Positions 39,344 to 44,896 of a DNA stretch of 62,778 bases are shown here, piece by piece; the first letter of the stretch is position 1; every line of letters begins with the position of its first letter. Source of the stretch: Bacteroidota bacterium (GTDB taxonomy: Bacteria > Bacteroidota > Bacteroidia > Chitinophagales > JADIYW01); the NCBI GenBank assembly GCA_020436225.1, contig JAGQYE010000049.1, positions 1 through 62,778 on the forward strand, given 5' to 3'. The notes beneath the pieces were generated by a model. It saw only the letters and a program-made list of their open reading frames with translations. It made no database searches and was not told the DNA's origin. The position numbers were made by a program, and so were the translations under genes.

Positions 39344-41362
39344 ATGGGTTTTGTTTTTTCTTGGTTCTTACTCGCACTTTTTGCCTTAGCTATTCCTATT
39401 CTTATTCATTTATTTTATTTCCGAAGATTTAAGAAAGTTTATTTCTCCGATATCCGATTTTTAAAACAAATTCAAGAAGAAAAATCAACTTTAGAAAAAC
39501 TAAAAAAACGTTTGATTCTAGCATCGCGTTTGTTAGCAATATTCTTTTTAATATTAGCTTTTGCTCAACCTTTTATCGGCAAAAACAAGCAACAACATCA
39601 ACAAGGAAGTGCTGCTGTTGCTGTATATATCGACAATTCGTATTCGATGGGTTTAAAATATGCCGGCGAATCTGCATTAGCTATTGCACAACAAAAAGCT
39701 AAAGAAATTGCACAAGCATTTCAAACCGATGATAAATTTATTTTACTGACCAATGATTTTGATGGCACACATCAACATTGGATGCAACAACAAGATTTCT
39801 TAGATGCCGTAGATAAAATTACGTTGTCGTCTGCAACAAGAAAAATAGATGCAATCAGCAAAAAACAATCAGCATTATTTCAAACAATTGGCGCTAAAAA
39901 TAAACTCGGTTTTTTCATTTCCGATTTTCAAAAAAATACTTTAGCAAAAAGCGAAGACACCAATTTTATAGCACATTTTTTGCCGATTCTATCCAATCCT
40001 AAAAAAAATATTTTTGTGGATTCTTGTTGGTTCGAGCAACCTGTTTTTACCAAAAACACCAACAATAAACTCTTAGTTCGTTTAAAAAATTCAGGAAATG
40101 CTACAGCTGAGAAAGTGCGTGTTTCCGTAAAAATAAATGATGTTGTAAAAGCGATTGACGATGTAACCATCCAAGCACAAAGTGCCGTTATCGATTCGTT
40201 TACAATTTCTATCGCACAAGCCGGTTGGCAACGCGGCGAAATTTCTTTCAACGATTATCCAATTACGTTTGACGATCAATTTTATTTCGCGTTTAATATT
40301 TTAGGACAAGAAAAAATTTTGTCGATTGATGATGCTGAAACACCGAACAACATCGCTTCTATTTTTAGTAACGATGCGCATTTTGTTTTAGATAAAAACA
40401 ACAAAGGTCAAGTCGATTATTCCGCTTTTTCAAATTATGCATTAATCGTCATCAATCAAGTGCAAGAAATCAGTTCAGGTTTGTCGGCATCGCTGAAAAC
40501 CTATATAGAAAATGGTGGAAACGTATTACTCATACCGGCAAGTCAAGCCAATATCACTTCGTACAATACATTTTTATCGAATTGCCAAGCCGGAAATTTT
40601 GGTGAATTAAAAACACAAACCAACGAAGTAACGCAACTCAATTTGAATGAAGATGTGTTTAAAGGTGTGTTTAGCCAAGTTCCGAAAAATGTAGCGCTTC
40701 CAAAAATATCTAAATTCTATCCAATTTCTTCAAGCAACCAAGCGAATGCCAGAACGATAATGTCAACAAATTTAGGTTCGCCTTTTGTGGCAAAATATCT
40801 CGTTGGTAAAGGTTATATTTATTTATTGTCTGTTCCGTTAAATTCCGAGTTTTCTAATTTCCAATCCAATGCTATCATTGTGCCTTTGGTGTATAATATG
40901 GCTGTGTATAAGAAAAATTATCCGGCATTATATTATTATATGGGTCGAGATAATTTGATAGAGTTAAACAATACGACAAGCGGAAATGAAAGCATTTATA
41001 AACTTACTAATGGGAAATATGAATTTATTCCTGAAAATAGAAGCATTGGTACATCAACCTTATTGCGTATCAACACGACCTTACCAGCAGACGGTATTTA
41101 TGCGATAAGTTCTCAAAATAAAACATTCGGATTGGCGGCATTCAACTTTGACAGAACAGAATCCGTTTTAGATTTTGCATCCAAAGAAACTTTAAAAAAA
41201 TACTATTCAGGCAAAAACCAATTGGTATTAGACAACACGCAAGCCAACTTAGCAGCCGAAGTAAAACAAATTAAAGACGACATTTTATTATGGAAAGTTT
41301 GCGTAATTTTGTCTTTATTATTTTTGTTGATAGAAATTCTATTAATCCGATTTTGGAAATGA
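39344..41362 (+). CDS. BatA-domain / vWA-like membrane protein
   Basis: The 672-residue protein starts with the BatA-type pair of membrane segments (about residues 5-24 and 57-77, with PILIHLFYFRRFKKVYFSDIRFL between). A vWA-like domain follows with VYIDNSYSMG near residue 96, which keeps the DxSxS metal pattern. The periplasmic middle part has an Ig-like region and a type 1 glutamine amidotransferase-like segment (YIENGGNVLLIPA near 387). A final membrane helix ends the protein (about 645-668). It is separate from the Bat operon at 8.7-17 kb but probably similar in topology. It precedes the dihydroorotase-like gene by 38 bases. Confidence 0.8.
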   Translation: MGFVFSWFLLALFALAIPILIHLFYFRRFKKVYFSDIRFLKQIQEEKSTLEKLKKRLILASRLLAIFFLILAFAQPFIGKNKQQHQQGSAAVAVYIDNSYSMGLKYAGESALAIAQQKAKEIAQAFQTDDKFILLTNDFDGTHQHWMQQQDFLDAVDKITLSSATRKIDAISKKQSALFQTIGAKNKLGFFISDFQKNTLAKSEDTNFIAHFLPILSNPKKNIFVDSCWFEQPVFTKNTNNKLLVRLKNSGNATAEKVRVSVKINDVVKAIDDVTIQAQSAVIDSFTISIAQAGWQRGEISFNDYPITFDDQFYFAFNILGQEKILSIDDAETPNNIASIFSNDAHFVLDKNNKGQVDYSAFSNYALIVINQVQEISSGLSASLKTYIENGGNVLLIPASQANITSYNTFLSNCQAGNFGELKTQTNEVTQLNLNEDVFKGVFSQVPKNVALPKISKFYPISSSNQANARTIMSTNLGSPFVAKYLVGKGYIYLLSVPLNSEFSNFQSNAIIVPLVYNMAVYKKNYPALYYYMGRDNLIELNNTTSGNESIYKLTNGKYEFIPENRSIGTSTLLRINTTLPADGIYAISSQNKTFGLAAFNFDRTESVLDFASKETLKKYYSGKNQLVLDNTQANLAAEVKQIKDDILLWKVCVILSLLFLLIEILLIRFWK

Positions 41363-41400
41363 AAATAAAAACACACTTGTAAATTTACATAGCTAAAAAC

Positions 41401-42651
41401 ATGCATTATCTACTCAAAAATATTATAGTCTTAGATGCTTCTTCGAATTTCTATCAAAAGCAAGTAGATGTTTTGCTTAAAAATGGAAAAATAGAAAATA
41501 TCGATTTCTCAATTGACGACAAACAAGCAGAAGCATTAGATTTTTCGGGTTGTTATTTAGCGCAAGGTTTTTGTGATCTCTATGTAAATACTAATGATCC
41601 GGGTTTTGAGTATCGCGATGACATCAACACGATTGCACAGTCAGCGCTTGCAGGTGGTTTTACTACAATTTGTGCCATACCAAATAATTTTCCTATCACA
41701 CAAACCAAAGCACAAGTAGATTATATTCTCAATAAAGCAAAAAATACAGCGATAACTATTTTGCCGATTGGAGCTGTAACGGAAAACTTTGATGGTAAAT
41801 CGCCGACAGAAATGTTGGATATGCATCACGCCGGAGCTATCGCTTTTTCTGATATTCCACATAGCATAAATAATAGTGGTGTGCTGCTGCGCGCCTTACA
41901 ATATGTTCAACCTTTTGATGGTTTGGTAATCAATATGCCGTTCGACCAAACATTAGTTGGCGAAGGTATCATTAATGAAAGTGAAATTTCGGTACGAATG
42001 GGCATGAAAGGCATTACCAACTTATCGGAATATACTGCTGTGCAACGCAATATAGAAATTCTGCAATATGCAGGCGGCAAGTTGCATCTTGTTGGCATTT
42101 CTACGAAAGAAAGTGTTGAGATTATCCGACAAGCAAAAGCAAAAAATTTGAATCTTAGTTGCTCAGTTTTTGTGCATCATCTTATTAGCAATGAAAACGA
42201 TGTAAAAAACTTTGATTCTAATTATAAAGTATTTCCGCCATTGCGTAGCAACGCCGACCAGCAAGCATTAATTGATGGATTGAAAGATGGAACGATTGAT
42301 TGCATTTCTACACAACATACACCGTTAAATATTGACGAAAAAAATGTTGAATTTGAACAAGCATTAAACGGCATTATCGGATTAGAAACAGCATTTGGTT
42401 TATTAAATAAAAAATTGGAAAAAGAAATCTCTAAAGAGAAATTGGTTGATTTGTTATCCAAAAATCCAAAAAACATTATTCAACCTAAGCAATCAACAAC
42501 AGATTTTGTAATTCTCAATTTTGATGAAACTTATACATTTACTGAAAAACATATTCGTTCAAAATCGAAAAACACACCTTATCTTCAACAAACCTTAAAA
42601 GGAAAAGTGAAAGCTGTTTTTTCTAAAGGTCAACTGGTGATTAATAAATAA
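41401..42651 (+). CDS. Dihydroorotase homologue lacking catalytic residues
   Basis: The 416-residue protein aligns over its length with dihydroorotase (PyrC/PyrX type): GFCDLYVNTNDPG at residues 56-68, ALAGGFTTICAIPNN near 82-96, VFPPLRSNADQQALIDGLKDGTID near 277-300. The residues needed for zinc binding and catalysis have changed. The HxH motif is Tyr61-Val-Asn63, the substrate Arg is Asn65, and the catalytic Asp before the late His is Gln305. It is therefore probably not a dihydroorotase; noncatalytic homologues elsewhere serve as structural partners of aspartate carbamoyltransferase, but no pyrB is in the window. Its TAA overlaps the next ATG by one base. Confidence 0.85.
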   Translation: MHYLLKNIIVLDASSNFYQKQVDVLLKNGKIENIDFSIDDKQAEALDFSGCYLAQGFCDLYVNTNDPGFEYRDDINTIAQSALAGGFTTICAIPNNFPITQTKAQVDYILNKAKNTAITILPIGAVTENFDGKSPTEMLDMHHAGAIAFSDIPHSINNSGVLLRALQYVQPFDGLVINMPFDQTLVGEGIINESEISVRMGMKGITNLSEYTAVQRNIEILQYAGGKLHLVGISTKESVEIIRQAKAKNLNLSCSVFVHHLISNENDVKNFDSNYKVFPPLRSNADQQALIDGLKDGTIDCISTQHTPLNIDEKNVEFEQALNGIIGLETAFGLLNKKLEKEISKEKLVDLLSKNPKNIIQPKQSTTDFVILNFDETYTFTEKHIRSKSKNTPYLQQTLKGKVKAVFSKGQLVINK

Positions 42652-43058
42652 TGGAAATCAACATTCAGCATATCGAAGAAAAAATAATTAACGCTTTAGA
42701 AAATGAAGATGTAAAAGCTATCTATTTGTATGGAAGCATTATTACAGAATATTATAATGTAGAAAGTGATATAGATATAGCGGTTTTATTTAATCAAAAG
42801 AAAAGTGCGATGCAAGTATTTGATGTGCAAGTAAAATTATCTTCCATTTTCGATAGAGACATAGATTTGGTGCAATTAGATACAGTTTCAACAGTTTTAC
42901 AATTTCAAGTAATACAAACAGGCAAACGCATTTTCTGTAAAGATGAGAAATTTTGCAATAAATATGAGTCGCAAATTTTTTGTGATTATGTAGAGTTAAA
43001 TGAATTGAGAAAACCTTATTTAGATGAAATTTCTAAAACAGGAAAAGTTTTGCGTTGA
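42651..43058 (+). CDS. MNT-domain nucleotidyltransferase, MntA-like antitoxin
   Basis: The 135-residue protein is a minimal nucleotidyltransferase with the signature GS-x10-DxD (Gly28-Ser29, Asp40 and Asp42). In MntA/HepT modules this enzyme transfers AMP from ATP to a tyrosine of the HEPN toxin and so neutralises it. The gene starts within the TAATG that ends the dihydroorotase-like gene and its own TGA overlaps the HEPN ATG. Order and pairing fit a type VII-like toxin-antitoxin module. The function is inferred from motifs and the neighbour. Confidence 0.88.
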   Translation: MEINIQHIEEKIINALENEDVKAIYLYGSIITEYYNVESDIDIAVLFNQKKSAMQVFDVQVKLSSIFDRDIDLVQLDTVSTVLQFQVIQTGKRIFCKDEKFCNKYESQIFCDYVELNELRKPYLDEISKTGKVLR

Positions 43059-43462
43059 TGGACGATGTATTAATATATAAAGCACAAACCATAGAGCGAT
43101 GTATCAATCGCGTACAAGAAATGTATGCCGTTTCAAAAGAAGAGATCGACACAAATTTTTTATATCAAGATGCTATTATATTGAATATAGAACGAGCTTG
43201 TCAGGCAGCAATAGATATGGGCAGTCATTTTGTAAAAACACATAAATTAGGTATTCCACAGAGTAGCAAAGATGTCTTTCAAATTTTACATTCAAACAAA
43301 ATAATAGATGAATCGTTAAACTTGAAGCTTCAAGCTATGGTTGGTTTCAGAAAGATTGCTGTGCATGATTATTCTAACTTAAATTTGGAAATTTTACACA
43401 GCATCATTCAAAAAGATATAGATGACATTTTAACTTTTTCAAAAACAATCTTGTTAAAATAA
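43058..43462 (+). CDS. HEPN-domain ribonuclease, HepT-like toxin
   Basis: The 134-residue all-helical protein (DUF86/HepT family) has the catalytic R-x4-H-x-Y motif at Arg98, His103 and Tyr105. HepT proteins cut RNA, and the Tyr is the residue that MntA-type enzymes modify. The ATG at 43058 overlaps the TGA of the antitoxin gene by one base; an in-frame TTG one codon upstream is a less likely start. Its TAA overlaps the ATG of the DUF4199 gene in the same way. All catalytic residues are present, so the toxin should be active if released. Confidence 0.88.
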   Translation: MDDVLIYKAQTIERCINRVQEMYAVSKEEIDTNFLYQDAIILNIERACQAAIDMGSHFVKTHKLGIPQSSKDVFQILHSNKIIDESLNLKLQAMVGFRKIAVHDYSNLNLEILHSIIQKDIDDILTFSKTILLK

Positions 43463-43893
43463 TGGAAAATAATTCTCTACCAGATAATAATCCTCGCGGA
43501 GTTTTAAGTGGCTTAGCCATTACTATTGTTTCAGCATTGTTTTCTACCATTTTCTATGTGGCATTTACGCTATTAGCTTATTACAAAAAAATGCCGTTTA
43601 GTGAAGCTAAAGTTGTATTTACGCAAATCATCTCAATTGTAATGTCTGTTTTTTTAGCTTTATACTTAGCAAGAAAAATACAAGGAAATAAACTTAGTTT
43701 AATTCAAGGCATTCTTACCGGCTGGATGGCAAGTATGATGCTGGCAATATTTATTTCGACTTATTATACGATATTTTTTAAAGCAACTAACCAATTTATG
43801 CCTGAAGGTGCTTTTGCCCGTTTGTTGTTTTTATACAATGGCATCGGTTTGATTTGGTCTATTATTTTTGCCATTTTTTTAAGAAAAGAATAA
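43462..43893 (+). CDS. DUF4199 membrane protein
   Basis: A 143-residue protein with four hydrophobic helices (about residues 15-37, 48-67, 75-98 and 117-139), matching the DUF4199 family of Bacteroidota. Function is unknown. The start codon overlaps the HEPN stop by one base (TAATG), so its translation may depend on the upstream genes. A glycosyltransferase follows 61 bases later; DUF4199 genes are often next to such GT2 genes. Confidence 0.78.
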   Translation: MENNSLPDNNPRGVLSGLAITIVSALFSTIFYVAFTLLAYYKKMPFSEAKVVFTQIISIVMSVFLALYLARKIQGNKLSLIQGILTGWMASMMLAIFISTYYTIFFKATNQFMPEGAFARLLFLYNGIGLIWSIIFAIFLRKE

Positions 43894-43930
43894 AAGCCAA
43901 AATACTATTGGCAACAAGCGCGAATAAAAC

Positions 43931-43938
43931 TATTTTTG
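43931..43938 (+). promoter_or_regulatory. -7 element for the GT2 gene
   Basis: TATTTTTG matches TAnnTTTG and lies 16 bases before the TTG start at 43955, so the transcript would have a leader of only about 10 bases. Confidence 0.45.
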
Positions 43939-43954
43939 CATAAACAAAGAATAT

Positions 43955-44896
43955 TTGGATATCTCAATCATCATACCATTATTAAACGAAGCCGAATCGC
44001 TGCCGGAATTATTTTCTTGGATAGAAAAAGTAATGAAAGACAACAATTTTTCGTATGAGATTATTGCTGTAGATGATGGAAGCAAAGACGATTCTTGGAA
44101 AGTAATTGAACAAGCAGCACAAAAAAATCCAAGCATAAAAGGTATTCGATTTCAGCGAAATTACGGCAAATCTGCGGCTTTACAAGTTGCCTTTGAAGCA
44201 GCTCAAGGCGATGTTGTTATCACCATGGATGCCGATTTACAGGATTCACCTGACGAAATTCCGGAGTTGTATAAGATGATAAAAAATGATGGGTTTCATT
44301 TGGTTTCCGGCTGGAAAAAGAAACGTTACGACCCATTGACTAAAACTATTCCGACTAAATTATTTAATGCCGTTACGCGTTCTGTTTCGGGCATACACAA
44401 CCTCCACGATTTTAATTGCGGATTGAAAGCTTACCAAAAAAATGTGGTAAAAAATATAGAAGTATATGGCGAAATGCATCGCTATATTCCGGTGATTGCC
44501 AAGTGGAATGGATTTGATAAAATAACAGAAAAACCGGTTCAACATCAAGAACGTAAATACGGCAAAACAAAGTTTGGCTTAGAGCGATTTATTTATGGTT
44601 TTTTAGATTTAATGAGCATTACTTTTGTCAGTAAATATGGCAAAAGACCGATGCATATTTTCGGTACTTTAGGCGTGCTTTCTTTCTTTTTTGGTTTGTT
44701 GATTTTGATTTATCTAACCGTAACTAAATTATTTTTTGGCGTAATCGGCATGACAGACCGACCTATATTTTATCTTGGTATTTTAACGGTAATTGTTGGA
44801 ACGCAATTATTTGTTGCCGGATTTTTAGGCGAATTAGTAGCGCGCAACAGCAACGAAAGAAATGCCTATTCTATTAAGGAAAAAGTTAATCTGTAA
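43955..44896 (+). CDS. GT2 family glycosyltransferase (polyprenyl-phosphate sugar transferase type)
   Basis: The 313-residue protein begins DISIIIPLLNEAESLPELF, the family's N-terminal strand. It has the DXD-type MDADLQDSPDE near residue 91, and the GMHRYIP/ERKYGKTKFG blocks of dolichyl-phosphate mannose synthase/ArnC-like enzymes. Two C-terminal membrane helices lie at about 230-255 and 270-295. It probably moves a sugar from a nucleotide donor to a lipid carrier on the cytoplasmic face. The start is TTG: a stop lies at 43925-43927 and there is no ATG before the conserved region. Confidence 0.88.
   Translation: MDISIIIPLLNEAESLPELFSWIEKVMKDNNFSYEIIAVDDGSKDDSWKVIEQAAQKNPSIKGIRFQRNYGKSAALQVAFEAAQGDVVITMDADLQDSPDEIPELYKMIKNDGFHLVSGWKKKRYDPLTKTIPTKLFNAVTRSVSGIHNLHDFNCGLKAYQKNVVKNIEVYGEMHRYIPVIAKWNGFDKITEKPVQHQERKYGKTKFGLERFIYGFLDLMSITFVSKYGKRPMHIFGTLGVLSFFFGLLILIYLTVTKLFFGVIGMTDRPIFYLGILTVIVGTQLFVAGFLGELVARNSNERNAYSIKEKVNL

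Follow-up and report, generated by a model that had tools for sequence, protein, structure and literature searches.

How can a mobile toxin-antitoxin pair come to sit inside a housekeeping operon with the chain of stop/start overlaps unbroken, and what becomes of its toxin there? The question is raised by a 62,778-nucleotide stretch of a Bacteroidota genome (GCA_020436225.1, contig JAGQYE010000049.1; hereafter the window), in which an MNT antitoxin gene and a HEPN toxin gene lie between a dihydroorotase-like gene and a DUF4199-like gene. The original prediction, made from the letters of the DNA, held that the pair had been inserted with one-base overlaps into a housekeeping operon, that both proteins keep their catalytic motifs, and that translation of toxin and antitoxin appears to depend on the upstream gene.

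Results

Organization of the locus

The genes all lie on the + strand, in the order BatA-like, dihydroorotase-like, MNT, HEPN, DUF4199-like and family 2 glycosyltransferase, with the following coordinates in the window:

39344-41362, + strand: BatA-like gene (aerotolerance regulator N-terminal; PF07584, E 8.8e-20), the first gene of the conserved cluster
41401-42651, + strand: dihydroorotase-like gene without the HxH metal site (TIGR00857, E 1.1e-86; CDLYVN replaces DxHxH)
42649-42653, + strand: TAATG overlap of the dihydroorotase-like stop and the MNT start, read from the sequence
42651-43058, + strand: MntA-like antitoxin (MNT, 135 aa; NF047752, E 7.3e-31, above cut-off; PDB 5yep_A, E 1.2e-10)
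43056-43060, + strand: TGATG overlap of the MNT stop and the HEPN start, read from the sequence
43058-43462, + strand: HepT-like toxin (HEPN, 134 aa; NF047751, E 1e-44; PF01934, E 1e-30; PDB 6m6u_B and 5yep_B, E ~8e-32)
43460-43464, + strand: TAATG overlap of the HEPN stop and the DUF4199-like start, read from the sequence
43462-43893, + strand: DUF4199-like membrane gene (own Pfam score below cut-off, E 0.0064; syntenic relatives PF13858)
43955-44896, + strand: family 2 glycosyltransferase, a conserved neighbour (PF00535, E 1.7e-31; syntenic in 27 of 29 related loci)

All three of the predicted one-base junctions were found where they had been placed. Across the window and 20 sampled stretches of the same genome, with neighbours delimited by a simple codon-based gene caller, a -1 gap separates 7 of 166 same-strand pairs, and three of the seven are the junctions of this locus, as against 4 of 163 for the other pairs; within the window, these three are the only -1 gaps among 36 pairs. 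In this family MNT and HEPN commonly overlap: the MNT stop lies beyond the first aligned HEPN base in many surveyed loci, and an overlap is annotated in all five plasmid records examined. It is therefore the two outer junctions that are unusual.

The names given to the flanking genes proved sound. The dihydroorotase-like gene scores above the cut-off of TIGR00857, with the metal-binding HxH absent, and the DUF4199 label is right by synteny although the gene itself falls under the Pfam cut-off, its syntenic relatives being clear members of PF13858 (E 3e-23 and 2e-21). The HxH site is also absent from the dihydroorotase-like proteins of the relatives inspected, and the place of this gene beside DUF4199 and the glycosyltransferase is conserved across the order; the protein is an old, probably non-catalytic paralogue.

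Family membership of the pair

Type VII HepT/MntA systems are defined by two motifs in neighbouring genes, with MNT first (PMC7641770, PMC3710099), and this is the layout found here, a GS-x10-DxD MNT gene being followed directly by an R-x4-H-x-Y HEPN gene:

42732-42776, + strand: GS-x10-DxD motif of MNT (G28 to D42), read from the sequence
43349-43372, + strand: R-x4-H-x-Y motif of HEPN (R98 to Y105), read from the sequence

Against the curated models, each with a cut-off of 60 bits, MNT scores 106.2 bits (MntA, NF047752) and HEPN 151.3 bits (HepT, NF047751), and over almost their entire length the two proteins match the solved pair of Shewanella oneidensis. The predicted identity as an MNT/HEPN toxin-antitoxin pair is thus supported by family profiles and by matches to solved structures alike. 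The catalytic residues of the antitoxin are intact: G28, S29, D40 and D42 agree with 50 of 50 homologues and D72 with 42 of 50, and MNT departs from columns conserved at 80% or more at two sites, Val59 and Phe110, both conservatively. The AMP-acceptor Tyr105 of HEPN is also kept. By every sequence test applied, save for the residue that follows the catalytic arginine, the pair fits the type VII HepT/MntA family.

A lysine beside the catalytic arginine

That residue, position 99 of HEPN, next to catalytic Arg98, is Lys in this locus. In an alignment with 56 other HEPN sequences, one of which has no residue in that column, the remaining 55 of 55 have Asn, and this is the sole place where the HEPN of the locus departs from columns conserved at 80% or more. 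Asn also stands at this position in eight further Bacteroidota copies, in five plasmid copies and in the solved S. oneidensis toxin, and the codon found here is a single base away from one for Asn:

43352-43354, + strand: codon AAG for Lys99, replacing the Asn of 55 of 55 scored homologues

The statement that both proteins keep their catalytic motifs therefore stands for the short patterns, which are present in both, and falls short at the residue adjoining the arginine. N, D or H most often fills this place, and in KEN domains the residue seems to take part in catalysis (PMC3710099); its counterpart in Ire1, a related RNase of HEPN type, is N1057, for which a role in holding or coordinating the scissile phosphate has been proposed (PMC3149027). 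Lys99 lies outside this set, a departure from what is typical and not from what is strictly defining. Because the Asn of its relatives is replaced by Lys, HepT of this locus may be a weakened RNase. On the other hand, a Legionella HEPN in which R98A and H103A hardly matter, and whose active site is formed by Q44 and E47, has been described (PMC11586414), so the toxin could stay active despite Lys99. The change is known from one genome, in one draft assembly.

Empty sites and the direct repeat

The surrounding cluster is well preserved among relatives: the dihydroorotase-like gene is present in 54 of 60 (E 1e-20), the glycosyltransferase is syntenic in all but two of the 29 related loci fetched besides the window's own, and BatA lies upstream in 19 of the 29, several of which end early. 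Neither MNT nor HEPN occurs at this site in any of the 29, no toxin gene was found anywhere in the seven congeners, and the other 394 of the 395 class genomes searched held no toxin match at E 1e-8. The predicted insertion into the operon is thus upheld by empty sites in relatives and by synteny on both sides.

The junction comparison that had been proposed with the prediction was run: in G005 and G006, the closest two relatives (74% and 72% protein identity, respectively), the stop/start junction without the pair reads TAATG. It is likewise TAATG in G010, and it is TAAATG in G004, a gap of +4 in G003 and longer in G002, G007 and G001. When the 811 bp separating the TAATG copies were removed in silico, the joined flanks aligned across the seam to G005 (281 bp, 69%), G004 (306 bp, 74%) and G003 (314 bp, 71%); for G006, the BLAST piece ends ahead of the seam and a global alignment carries TAATG through. 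Since the empty junction of the two closest relatives is itself TAATG, the 811-bp insert entered an existing one-base overlap, which was recreated on both sides.

Both seams are spanned by a 12-bp direct repeat:

42646-42657, + strand: left copy of AAATAATGGAAA
43457-43468, + strand: right copy of AAATAATGGAAA

Given TAATG at both seams, the chance of a repeat this long is between about 0.3% (positional model) and 0.6% (real start pairs). The repeat suggests either microhomology or duplication at the ancestral start, and similar start contexts at the seams could also have converged. Compared with the pairs behind pgi described below, the spacing from the MNT start to the GS motif is the usual one, so the ATGGAAA at the seam may be MNT's own; as the repeat may equally be shared microhomology, we did not retain transposition with target-site duplication as the explanation.

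A second case behind pgi

In a survey of 296 genomes of the phylum, 43 of which carry a toxin above the cut-off, the best-scoring toxins were those of G290 and G133, each 47% identical to the toxin of this locus. In both, the MNT start overlaps the stop of the glucose-6-phosphate isomerase gene (pgi) as ATGA, and a DUF350 gene follows the toxin at 34 and 19 nt, respectively. Nine genomes of the family concerned (f48) were searched and the junction was readable in seven; three of these (G133, G290 and G694, three species of genus g110) have the pgi-MNT-HEPN arrangement, while in a congener, G693, the pair is missing and the space from pgi to DUF350 contains weak MNT-like remnants (best protein E 0.009, DNA E 8e-5), and the three other readable genomes lack the arrangement. 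Between G133 and G290, dN/dS is 0.18 for MNT and 0.13 for HEPN; between G290 and G694 it is 0.20 for HEPN, the MNT genes being identical.

The pgi insertion is an event separate from that between the dihydroorotase-like and DUF4199-like genes, so such pairs have come to overlap with a housekeeping gene at least twice. Overlap of this sort is rare: among 50 other surveyed pairs, overlap with the upstream gene is certain in two, both of the pgi case, and doubtful in one. Set aside from this count were L069 (-4, with a 94-aa low-complexity frame), L043, L062, L048, L058 and L038 (small or negative gaps resting on alternative starts or unverified frames), L092 (no tblastn match) and six loci with no MNT near the toxin (L042, L050, L054, L056, L087 and L090). 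The Asn after the catalytic Arg is intact in the G133 and G290 toxins; embedding thus does not require disarming, and we rejected the notion that it brings disarming about as a rule.

Promoters and coupling

With the Bacteroidetes-type promoter consensus, we found two matches within 150 nt upstream of the dihydroorotase-like gene and none within the 300 nt preceding MNT. A candidate with spacing at the short end of the scanned range is the following:

41298-41326, + strand: candidate Bacteroidetes-type promoter, TTTG-17-TATTTTTG (consensus match only), located about 75 nt upstream of the dihydroorotase-like gene

Of 114 genes with open space upstream, the motif precedes just 36, and it also turns up in 94 of 1313 slices of coding sequence, so its absence before the pair is weak evidence. 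Sigma-70-like matches in 41200-44000 numbered 16, against 13.4 expected from shuffles, and nothing bearing on the pair in the sigma-70 and terminator scans clearly exceeds the shuffled sequences. The proposed dependence of toxin and antitoxin translation on the upstream gene is therefore favored indirectly, by where the Bacteroidetes-type matches do and do not fall, and is tempered by a motif that misses most true upstream regions.

Translational coupling commonly takes the form of re-initiation at overlaps of -4 or -1 nt (PMC10666635), and the three -1 overlaps of this locus are of that kind; the tests in the cited work were made in E. coli and Haloferax, and Bacteroidetes seem to re-initiate without a Shine-Dalgarno sequence (PMC6728339). 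Because the overlaps leave the pair no intergenic space in which its own promoter could lie, it is probably made from the operon transcript, and we infer that it is probably coupled to the operon in translation as well.

Origin of the pair

Candidate donors were sought and none was retained. Phage origin found no match in annotated phages, nor in viral contigs with the peptide patterns used. Relatives occur in 52 plasmid records, mostly of Bacillaceae, and the best is only 51% identical, which argues against a plasmid donor; none of 28 toxin loci exceeds 49% identity, which leaves no close genomic donor among them. In a tree the toxin clusters weakly with L035, L063 and L064 (81/35). Three of the five plasmid records examined (L134, L136 and L137, Bacillaceae plasmids) place MNT-HEPN just ahead of an annotated tyrosine recombinase XerS gene, separated from it by no more than one small gene. 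The genome of the window holds a second MNT-like frame with two internal stops (L002; G000:C53:6257-6526, - strand), probably a decayed pair, whose neighbor we take by eye to be a seryl-tRNA synthetase gene.

Discussion

The account that we consider fairly probable is that a type VII MntA/HepT pair, most likely a recent acquisition of this species, arrived as an 811-bp block and landed in the one-base TAATG overlap that already joined the dihydroorotase-like and DUF4199-like genes. Because that overlap now stands on both sides, inside the 12-bp repeat, no link in the operon's series of stop/start overlaps is broken. Ribosomes would re-initiate at each overlap, producing the antitoxin first, the toxin next and the housekeeping gene last, the DUF4199-like gene now being reached through the toxin. 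MntA would AMPylate Tyr105 of HepT, as in Shewanella, and the toxin so made with the operon may be a weakened one.

Alternatively, one could envision a fully active type VII pair driven by a promoter hidden towards the 3' end of the dihydroorotase-like gene; Lys99 would then be neutral and the overlaps mere packing. We hold this to be somewhat unlikely. The independence of the Legionella HEPN from its R/H motif (PMC11586414) would accommodate a neutral Lys99, sigma-70-like matches do exist in the region, though near the shuffled rate, and the Bacteroidetes motif passes over most true upstream regions; yet no match to that motif precedes the pair, and the Asn does not vary in the scored homologues.

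We are more doubtful that the pair has been domesticated, HEPN serving as a substrate or regulator instead of a toxin and its frame being kept since translation of DUF4199 passes through it. The overlaps at both ends, and the presence of Lys99 alongside an intact AMP acceptor and intact MNT residues, speak for this reading, but it draws on the sequence of one genome, too few to measure selection. A related speculation, to which we give little credence, is that the toxin persists by its place in the translation chain and not by addiction. If DUF4199 were reached mainly by ribosomes that had finished antitoxin and toxin, nonsense and frameshift mutations would be selected against, so the toxin could be disarmed by missense only, and Lys99 would be such a change.

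An ancestral presence of the pair in the genus, followed by clean loss from the other species, is highly improbable. The direct repeat would permit precise loss, and such loss does happen, as the remnants at the pgi locus of G693 indicate, but it would be needed in the seven congeners and in four other family members with the dihydroorotase-like gene, and the toxin finds no match in the rest of the class genomes searched. An assembly artefact, in which a foreign 811-bp piece was joined into the contig, is hardly credible: the genome is in 141 contigs and from a single strain, but the stop/start frames are kept at both seams, the flanks are syntenic with relatives, and the insert is AT-rich like its host, if somewhat more so (GC 0.277 and 0.299 versus 0.340 for the window).

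Retaining the reading of a pair acquired into an existing overlap, we see in this locus a clean before-and-after case of a mobile pair entering a conserved operon while its overlaps remain unbroken, the sister species providing the empty-site controls. Two questions thereby become testable: do insertions favor one-base overlaps as places to land, and is missense the only route by which a toxin in a coupled chain is disarmed?

An MNT-HEPN insertion in a biosynthesis operon was described as early as 2009, so the kind of event is already known. That module, inserted in a lysine biosynthesis operon of Thermus thermophilus HB8 and absent in HB27 (Makarova 2009, PMC2701414), resembles this locus in that such a pair was inserted into a biosynthesis operon and the site is empty in a close relative; the junctions of that module are not described in the section devoted to it, whereas here an ancestral stop/start overlap is recreated on both sides. 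A listing-level search of the literature on toxin-antitoxin pairs inserted in coupled operons, and on overlaps, returned no description of this junction. What is added here is an empty site resolved at the ancestral overlap, the repeat, a second overlapped case and Lys99. The pgi-linked pairs of G133, G290 and G694 share overlap with an upstream housekeeping gene, and the toxins of the first two are the 47% matches noted above, but they lie in another operon, keep the Asn (G133 and G290) and have DUF350 19-34 nt away without overlap. The Legionella pneumophila HEPN-MNT pair, as described in PMC11586414, is likewise type VII with the same motifs as this locus, its RNase center being Q44/E47 with Mg and not the R-x4-H motif. 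A further close relation is HepT/MntA of S. oneidensis (SO_3166/SO_3165; PDB 5yep, 6m6u and 7aer), which has full-length toxin similarity (E 8e-32), the same GS-x10-DxD and R-x4-H-x-Y motifs and the same AMP-acceptor Tyr; unlike that pair, the one described here has Lys after the catalytic Arg and is joined to housekeeping genes on both sides by one-base overlaps.
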